From assembly GCA_003697105.1 (NCBI GenBank), contig RFFQ01000115.1:1-7899 (forward strand): a DNA stretch of 7,899 nt. Reading direction: 5' to 3'. Below are positions 5,483 to 7,899 of this stretch, in pieces. Origin of the DNA: Gemmatimonadota bacterium (lineage in GTDB: Bacteria > 4572-55 > J002). Within the stretch, counting starts at the first letter, position 1. Each line of letters starts with the position of its first letter. Below the pieces are notes generated by a model. It did no database searches. It saw only the letters and a program-made list of their open reading frames with translations, and was not told the DNA's origin. Made by a program: the position numbers and the translations under genes.

Positions 5483-5511
5483 TTGACATCCGCACCGGTG
5501 CTTGTTACCAT
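5483..5511 (+). promoter_or_regulatory. Strong sigma70-type promoter of korA with extended -10
   Basis: TTGACA (5483-5488, perfect) is followed by a 17-base spacer and TACCAT (5506-5511, 4 of 6). A TGT just before the -10 (5503-5505) supplies the extended TGn element. The AT-rich run at about 5450-5482 resembles an UP element. The predicted start is near 5518, so the leader to the ATG at 5562 is about 44 bases. An upstream in-frame TTG at 5502 lies inside this promoter and so cannot be the start codon. Confidence 0.75.
5492..5501. promoter_or_regulatory. Possible operator: 10-base palindrome in the korA promoter spacer
   Basis: GCACCGGTGC is a perfect palindrome lying wholly between the -35 and -10 boxes of the korA promoter. 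A regulator bound here would overlap RNA polymerase. It is short, symmetry does not extend beyond it, and a chance match cannot be excluded. The regulator is unknown. Confidence 0.35.
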
Positions 5512-5561
5512 ACGCCTCAAAACAATCTGTTCCCTTAACGCTCCAAACGAGAACTCGAGTG

Positions 5562-7439
5562 ATGCAGACAAACAACGGTAACCCCCGTATTGTAGAAGAA
5601 GCCACCATCCTGTTTGCCGGTGATTCTGGCGATGGCATGCAACTGACCGGCACCCAATTTACAAACACCGCCGCCATGATGGGTAACGATGTTGCCACGT
5701 TGCCCAACTATCCGGCAGAAATCCGTTCGCCCGCCGGCACGCTCTATGGTGTGTCTAGCTTTCAAGTTCATTTTGGCAGTGTAGATGTTCACACGCCCGG
5801 CGATGAGTGTGATATGCTCGTGGCGATGAATCCGGCAGCGTTAAAGGTCAGCCTCCACCAGCTAAAGTATGGCGGCATCATTTTGGTGAATGAAGACCAA
5901 TTCACAGAGAAGAACCTGCGTTTAGCAGAATACGACGAGAATCCTTTAGATAATGATACCCTAGACCGGTATCAAGTGTATCGGGTGGAAATTTCCAAAT
6001 TAACCGCTCTGGCGCTAGAAGATTCGGGGTTGTCGCCCAAAGAGATCGAACGGTGTAAAAATTTCTTTGCGCTTGGTATCACTTACTTTCTGTACAATCG
6101 GGATGTGGCGCCGACGATCCGGTGGATTGGCCAAAAATTCAAGTCGCGCCCGGAATTGGCGAATGCCAACAAGACCGCCTTGCAAGCGGGTTATAATTTT
6201 GCCTATACCGCCGAGTTTTTTACCTCGCGTTATACCGTAGAAAAAGCGCAGTTGGCACCGGGCAAATACCGTAATATCAGCGGCACCCAAGCTTTAGCTT
6301 ACGGTTTAGTTGCCGCCGCCGAACGTGCCCAAACCCCGCTTTTTTATGGCGGATACCCGATTACACCGGCATCAGACCTACTGCATTATCTTTCCACTTT
6401 AAAACATTTTGGAGTGAAAACCTTTCAAGCAGAGGATGAAATCGCAGCAATCGGGAGCGCTATCGGAGCATCATATGCAGGAAATATCGCCGTGACGGGT
6501 ACTTCCGGGGCAGGGGTTTCGCTCAAAACAGAAGCTATCGGTCTGGCGGTGATGGCAGAACTGCCGCTAGTCATTGTCAATATTCAACGGGGAGGTCCCT
6601 CGACCGGTTTGCCGACCAAAACGGAACAATCCGACCTTTACCAAGCTATGTTCGGACGGCATGGGGAAGCGCCACTGATCGTGCTGGCGGCAAAAACACC
6701 GGCTAATTGTTTTGAGATGGCGTTTGAAGCCGTCCGGCTTGCCCAACAGCACATGACACCGGTGATACTCCTCTCCGATGGGTATCTGGGTAATGGCTCC
6801 GAACCGTGGCGATTGCCTGATGTGGACCGTCTTCCACCGATCAACATAACCTTTGCGGAAAACCCAGAAACGTACCAACCTTACCAACGGGATGAAAATT
6901 TGGTGCGGCTACGCGCGATTCCGGGTATGCCCGGCTTTGAACACCGCATCGGCGGTTTGGAAAAAGAGAATATCAGCGGTAATGTCAGCTACGATCCGGC
7001 AAATCATGAACTGATGACGAAACTTCGGCAGGAAAAAGTAGATCGCGTGGCAGAGAACATCCCGGATCTGGGGGTCGAAGGTGACCCCGACGCTGAACTG
7101 CTGATCCTAGGCTGGGGATCAACTTATGGCTCAATTAAAAAGGCGGTGGAAAATTTGTTAGCTGGTGGGATTCGGGTGGCACACGCACATTTGACGTATC
7201 TGAATCCGTTTCCGAAAAACACGGAAGCCGTATTGCGATCCTACAAAACAATTTTAGTTCCGGAGATCAACAACGGGCAATTAGTGAACATCATCCGCGC
7301 CAAATATCTGCTCCCCGCAATTCCGTTCAATATCATTCAGGGTCGCCCCTTTAAAGCGGTGGAAATTGAAGAAAAAGTGAAAGAATTGTTGAACTCCAAA
7401 AACGAATACAGCCCCAACGGCTCAACAACACAAAGATGA
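5562..7439 (+). CDS. korA: 2-oxoacid:ferredoxin oxidoreductase alpha subunit with fused gamma domain (KorA-like), 625 aa
   Basis: This is a subunit of a thiamine-pyrophosphate enzyme that decarboxylates a 2-oxoacid, most likely 2-oxoglutarate, to the acyl-CoA while reducing ferredoxin. It may also run in reverse to fix CO2. The N-terminal gamma domain (about 13-205) starts FAGDSGDGMQLTGTQFTNT and includes PAEIRSPAGTLYGVSSFQV. The alpha pyrimidine-binding domain (about 238-425) carries YPITPASD (265-272), TSGAGVSLKTEA (314-325) and NIQRGGPSTGLPTKTEQSD (340-358). A transketolase-C-like domain follows (about 530-605, GWGSTYGSIKKAVENL). This gamma-alpha fusion is about 610-630 residues in relatives, and length is normal. 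The ATG at 5562 follows the promoter by about 44 bases, with only a weak GAG ribosome site. The catalytic TPP-binding beta subunit (korB) should be adjacent but is not within the next 460 bases. Substrate assignment is by family resemblance; a pyruvate or other 2-oxoacid preference is possible. Confidence 0.9.
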   Translation: MQTNNGNPRIVEEATILFAGDSGDGMQLTGTQFTNTAAMMGNDVATLPNYPAEIRSPAGTLYGVSSFQVHFGSVDVHTPGDECDMLVAMNPAALKVSLHQLKYGGIILVNEDQFTEKNLRLAEYDENPLDNDTLDRYQVYRVEISKLTALALEDSGLSPKEIERCKNFFALGITYFLYNRDVAPTIRWIGQKFKSRPELANANKTALQAGYNFAYTAEFFTSRYTVEKAQLAPGKYRNISGTQALAYGLVAAAERAQTPLFYGGYPITPASDLLHYLSTLKHFGVKTFQAEDEIAAIGSAIGASYAGNIAVTGTSGAGVSLKTEAIGLAVMAELPLVIVNIQRGGPSTGLPTKTEQSDLYQAMFGRHGEAPLIVLAAKTPANCFEMAFEAVRLAQQHMTPVILLSDGYLGNGSEPWRLPDVDRLPPINITFAENPETYQPYQRDENLVRLRAIPGMPGFEHRIGGLEKENISGNVSYDPANHELMTKLRQEKVDRVAENIPDLGVEGDPDAELLILGWGSTYGSIKKAVENLLAGGIRVAHAHLTYLNPFPKNTEAVLRSYKTILVPEINNGQLVNIIRAKYLLPAIPFNIIQGRPFKAVEIEEKVKELLNSKNEYSPNGSTTQR

Positions 7440-7652
7440 TAGGAAAAAGAACAAGATTCCGCCCCTTATCATCTGCGGATTAAAAGCGGTGGTGGAAATG
7501 AAATCGCTTTGGAAAGCTCGATGGATGAGCCGCCCCAAACTAGTAAACTTCCGCTTCGGTTTTTTGATCCATTTTAATATCCCATTGGTAAAAATGGTAC
7601 TAACCGGATAATCATTTGAGTGAGACCGCGCACAAGAAAGCTGTTGTTTTCT
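7440..7652. other. Non-coding stretch after korA; no korB
   Basis: No gene recognised on either strand. An ATG at 7436 overlaps the korA stop as ATGA, a layout typical of translational coupling, but that frame closes after 15 residues (stop 7481-7483). An ATG at 7498 gives 37 residues (MKSLWKARWMSRPK...) that I do not recognise. A weak 3 bp hairpin with a T-run (7551-7565) could act as a poor terminator. A minus-strand frame is open across this stretch but has no start or family signal. The segment may be a decayed spacer or the scar of a rearrangement that separated korA from its partner. Confidence 0.45.
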
Positions 7653-7752
7653 TAGGTTCTGTTGACATTTCGTAATTTGTTTATGACATATTGTTTCTTT
7701 GAAAGGAGAAACGCCCTATGTCATCAAAATTACGAAATGTCAACAGAACCTA
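7653..7752. mobile_element. MITE-like / deleted insertion-sequence remnant with perfect 26-base terminal inverted repeats
   Basis: Bases 7653-7678 are the exact reverse complement of 7727-7752. Inner arms 7683-7690 and 7717-7724 also pair. Within these, 7693-7698 pairs with 7707-7712 around a GAAA loop (7701-7704), so the whole 100 bases can fold into one long hairpin. Each end reads TA then GGTTCTGTTGACATTTCG. If the TA is a duplicated target, the element is 7655-7750 with 24-base repeats. The inside looks like the 5' end of a transposase gene: TTGACA in the left arm, AGGAG at 7703-7707 and ATG at 7718. That reading frame ends after 11 codons at TAG in the right arm. This fits an IS whose transposase was deleted, leaving its two ends. 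A TA target suggests IS630 or the TA-targeting IS5 subgroups; the family is not determined. No transposase is present. Confidence 0.72.
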
Positions 7753-7899
7753 GGACTACATATAGATATTGATGATAGTAAAAATATAATAAGACTCTTG
7801 TCTTCTGACCACAAATTATTAGCTGAATGGGATGTTTACGTTATAGTCGGAGTTTTTTCTTCAAAATTAAGTCGATTATTATTTGTTCTAGCTGATAGG
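7753..7899 (+). CDS. Partial open frame, AT-rich, runs off the window (possible restriction endonuclease C-terminal fragment)
   Basis: The frame is open for 49 codons from the end of the palindromic element to the window edge. It reads GLHIDIDDSKNIIRLLSS, then DHKLLAEWDVYVI, then FSSKLSRLLFVLADR. The alternating strand-like pattern and hydrophobic core look like real protein rather than noise. G+C is 44 of 147 bases (30%), far below korA, which suggests acquired DNA. The frame continues without a stop back through the right inverted repeat to 7687 (stop at 7684-7686), with a possible TTG at 7699, so the visible N-terminus may be encoded by the element. GLHI(D/E)-like then LA-W-then KL--L-FV-AD resembles, from memory, the C-terminal part of MvaI/BcnI-type restriction endonucleases, which would make this a 5'-truncated gene. 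That identification is tentative; a start codon of its own is not seen. Confidence 0.4.

Follow-up and report, generated by a model that had tools for sequence, protein, structure and literature searches.

A 96-bp hairpin element in a Gemmatimonadota genome as a probable MITE of IS5-family origin

What is a long hairpin that encloses a Shine-Dalgarno (SD) sequence and a start codon doing close to the end of a contig? The window, meaning the whole 7,899-nt stretch analysed here, is one entire contig (C188) of a metagenome-type assembly of 4.18 Mb in 199 contigs. Near its right end, 7653–7678 and 7727–7752 are complementary at 26/26 positions, and RNA folding of 7640–7770 gave a minimum free energy (MFE) of −65.9 kcal/mol (z −13.7). 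No shuffled sequence was equally low (0/200; mean −21.5, sd 3.25); the hairpin is far above chance expectation. Beyond the arms, pairing runs through inner stems up to a GAAA tetraloop, with AGGAG in the innermost stem and the ATG (7718–7720) in the middle stem. An earlier sequence-only reading had described identical inverted arms, pairing into a GAAA loop, TA ends and a fold that carries a ribosome site and would hide the start codon. All four were recovered: TA was seen at both element edges, and SD and ATG were paired where that reading had placed them.

The hairpin and its surroundings

The upstream gene (5502–7439) was named from sequence reading as the alpha subunit of a 2-oxoacid:ferredoxin oxidoreductase. 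No beta-subunit gene was found in the 460 bp from this gene to the contig end; beta-subunit family matches lie on contigs C195, C24 and C186. Past the hairpin, 7753–7899 is AT-rich and contains a reading frame still open at the contig edge (LGLHIDIDDSKNIIRLLSSDHKLLAEWDVYVIVGVFSSKLSRLLFVLADR), with no Pfam, NCBIfam or plasmid match. This frame is possibly a gene cut by the element.

A strong RNA fold starting 213 bp past the alpha-subunit stop codon could be read as a terminator or regulatory RNA hairpin acting locally on that gene. However, no T-run follows the hairpin, and its sequence is present at unrelated loci and as the ends of insertion sequences (ISs), as set out below. Rfam returned no family at gathering score, the listed matches being models of microRNAs, which long hairpins of any kind will hit. 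In view of the other copies and the Rfam result, this reading was rejected as highly unlikely. It is largely refuted by the other copies, and the hairpin may have an incidental effect on mRNA stability.

Copies and parental ends in the same genome

Eight exact TAGGTTCTGTTGACATTT sites were found in the genome, against none for the reversed control, and 383 of the 386 genomes searched had zero sites. The 16-bp terminal inverted repeat (TIR) itself is exact at every IS and putative MITE end in this genome. Matches to the element lie at the ends of C66, C62, C158 and C54; at C47 and C67 the terminal repeat is present, its 18-base pattern altered at one position. C62 and C66 are IS left ends, with the same 82 bp as the window element followed by ATTACGAACGGATCAATGGTCAA, and here the element's ATG opens a longer frame, MSSKLRTDQWS. 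C47 and C67 are IS right ends, where a frame ends in FSRFDKFDTSFMAFLQFVATLIWLR, its stop codon running into the first bases of the repeat AAATGTCAACAGAACC. Searching with the FSRFDKFDTSFMAFLQFVATLIWLR peptide by tblastn retrieved proteins annotated as IS5 family transposase. TA was present at every parent IS end seen. Both ends of a parent IS thus lie in this genome. The parent is known by these two ends (11 N-terminal and 26 C-terminal transposase residues); own-genome searches with a sister IS transposase and PF01609 found no IS body in the assembly, the single PF01609 match lying on a different contig, C124.

The 96 bp of the window element correspond to 82 bp of IS left end and 16 bp of IS right end, overlapping by 2 bp. 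Its features in window coordinates are as follows.

7655..7750, + strand: putative MITE, 96 bp; orientation as in the parent IS left end; edges match repeat edges on other contigs
7653..7654, no strand: left target-site TA (YTA context), outside the element proper
7751..7752, no strand: right target-site TA (TAR context), outside the element proper
7655..7670, + strand: left TIR GGTTCTGTTGACATTT, 16 bp; exact at IS and MITE ends in this genome and also in other phyla
7735..7750, − strand: right TIR, + strand sequence AAATGTCAACAGAACC; equals the final 16 bp of the IS right ends C47 and C67
7655..7736, + strand: 82 bp identical to the intact IS left end (C62, C66)
7735..7736, + strand: junction AA, belonging to both the left-end and the right-end segment (microhomology of 2 bp)
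7718..7753, + strand: transposase frame remnant preceded by AGGAG, ATG plus 10 codons (MSSKLRNVNRT)
7671..7736, + strand: inner hairpin from the IS left end, pairing the transposase SD and start codon

The element is short, with 16-bp TIRs and an 11-codon remnant in place of a transposase gene, and its ends are common to ISs of the same genome (left in C62 and C66, right in C47 and C67). It also occurs at more than one site. C54:1–49 carries a junction identical to that of the window followed by a different flank, and the window copy has unique flanking sequence. Two copies are therefore certain (C188 and C54), and C158, which holds the first part of the element alone and fits either an IS or a MITE, is a possible third. 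The earlier reading had named a single genome-wide copy with no related IS as part of what would argue for a local hairpin; that result was not obtained.

The contig ends 147 bp after the element, and all other copies sit at contig ends, where the assembly breaks, which could suggest an assembly artefact. Repeats like these are, however, expected to break short-read assemblies, and recurrence of the junction in C54 with a different flank argues against a chimera. An artefact at the contig end was accordingly judged very improbable.

Judged by its sequence, the window element is very probably a non-autonomous MITE derived from an IS5-family IS that resides in the same genome and has a YTA/TAR target preference. 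The parent ends, the identical 82 bp, the common TIR and the TA-flanked loci all support the MITE origin that had been proposed from the hairpin. The parent may belong to the IS427 subgroup of IS5. The retained 16-bp TIRs would serve as sites of transposase binding and cutting, and the element, having no transposase, would be moved in trans by full-length copies. The SD, ATG and inner half of the hairpin would be leftovers of the parent transposase start. From copies and anatomy we infer transposition, TA duplication and an active transposase. Assuming a 2-bp duplication, the predicted pre-insertion sequence at the window site, with one TA, is TTTTCTTAGGACTA.

The sequence-only reading had also raised a portable translation-start cassette supplying SD and ATG to downstream genes, and AGGAG and ATG are indeed present at normal spacing. 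Yet the ATG frame stops after 11 codons at a TAG formed by the target TA and the adjoining G, both signals are paired in the fold, and in the IS they are the transposase's own start. Since most sites of the group read TAR, TAG or TAA would close the frame nearly everywhere. A start cassette is thus extremely unlikely and was rejected.

Two of the ends adjoin genes whose expression they could affect. A gltX-like gene follows immediately after the parent right end on C67:82–99 (L218), and the left end on C158 (L213) lies upstream of a gap-like gene.

Relatives elsewhere and hairpins at transposase starts

The element was not found outside its own genome among 60 genomes searched, the nearest being of the same class, and blastn against plasmids gave just three weak matches (E 0.1–0.3), taken as chance. 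An exact scan of the genome collection with TAGGTTCTGTTGACATTT found at least 118 stretches, against 7–8 expected by chance as estimated from collection size and pattern length. Among the matches listed, inward-facing repeats bound complete two-frame ISs, mostly of 798–841 bp. These sister ISs occur in Nitrosomonas communis (L118), bacterium RI_153 (L080), Dehalococcoidia (L081, L056, L108) and Coleofasciculus (L068, L086). Their transposase is split over two frames, with products matching Pfam DUF4096 and DDE_Tnp_1 and NCBIfam NF033580 (IS5 family transposase).

Small elements were also present: 55 sites of 62–331 bp among the matches listed, in about 35 sequence clusters, a loose grouping, since one end of some elements could differ at as many as three positions. 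They occur in Poribacteria, Chloroflexota, Methylococcales, Omnitrophota, Halobeggiatoa and others. TA lay on both sides at 64/68 sampled sites, in YTA/TAR context at 59 of those 64. Three sites in Chloroflexi BJ8 (L072, L079, L095) carry identical TA-flanked elements of 64 bp, among the shortest of the matches listed. Another genome, G317 (contigs C4, C8, C10 and C16), has 16 exact 18-bp terminal patterns, with element sizes including 201, 237 and 242 bp. In viral contigs the 18-bp TIR with CG had no match, and 16-bp TIR matches were seen in 29 contigs. The TIR sequence was not found in open-access papers. Across many phyla, the TA-GGTTCTGTTGACATTT repeat group gives rise to small palindromic elements, and it interrupts metagenome assemblies.

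Folded alone, with no right end, the parent left end gave an MFE of −31.3 kcal/mol (z −4.5) with the ATG paired at a probability of 1.00. The parent IS therefore appears to bury its own start codon in secondary structure. Because this left end is predicted to fold by itself, the inner hairpin of the window would be older than the MITE, and the striking structure of the window can be explained as the fossil of a transposase start.

Left-end structures are enriched in sister ISs, though not universal. IS left ends with the common repeat had z < −2 in 9/23 cases, compared to 12/150 ordinary gene starts drawn as controls from the IS loci themselves (Mann-Whitney p = 2.5e-4, with sequences not all independent). 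The strongest structures were those of L085, L152, L080 and the genome's own IS; several sister ISs had none. Pairing probability of the ATG was not clearly raised across the 23 left ends as a group. The IS left ends of L085 (1962 onward) and L152 each have a perfect hairpin of 15–16 bp with the transposase ATG at its centre.

In IS10 and IS50, mRNA structure sequesters the transposase start. A reference title in PMC8450116 indicates the same for IS200. By folding prediction, SD and ATG of the parent left end likewise pair with upstream sequence whose full length would be present only in a transcript from outside; no sequence relation to these elements exists. The enrichment across left ends is suggestive of protection from outside transcription, an effect known for some other ISs, and the parent hairpin probably lowers transposase translation from transcripts entering from outside. 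Start hairpins in the sister ISs offer a small testable point on how an IS may escape activation from promoters nearby.

Formation of the palindrome and comparison with known elements

Internal deletion is given as the origin of MITEs in general (PMC3852290). For the window element, deletion with 2-bp microhomology would be the standard account, and its sequence appears equally compatible with a fold-back copy. In the latter case the element would still be a MITE, its right arm copied from the left TIR after the strand folded back at the start-codon hairpin. In the right arm, no base points specifically to the IS right end; what it has of the IS ends is the 16 bp that left and right share, and the right-end-specific bases lie on the AGCGTAACC side. 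The joint also leaves the register of the pre-existing inner stem fully intact, and the element's perfect arm measures 24 bp without TA, more than any other in a sample of 58 small element records (the rest ≤17 bp). However, a simple deletion with 2-bp microhomology would yield the identical sequence, in one event the kept register may be chance, and fold-back copying should take the flank too unless stopped at the element end. We therefore regard a fold-back origin as unlikely, though credible. More doubtful still is the broader proposal of a widespread IS5 group whose left end repeatedly evolves a start-codon hairpin silencing read-through transcripts, with the same hairpin seeding palindromic MITEs by TIR fold-back copying.

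By either route, the window element, as a probable MITE, is a mobile element of an ordinary type. It shares a TIR and TA-flanked insertion with the IS5-family two-frame ISs (NF033580), as represented by the sister ISs with DUF4096 and DDE_Tnp_1, but has no gene, and the gene body of its parent is not assembled. Like the IS5-associated archaeal MITEs (PMC3852290), it is short, has IS TIRs and no transposase, and exists in several copies. The archaeal elements are tabulated at 140–252 bp, whereas the window element is only 96 bp, forms a near-perfect palindrome and retains the start signals of a transposase.
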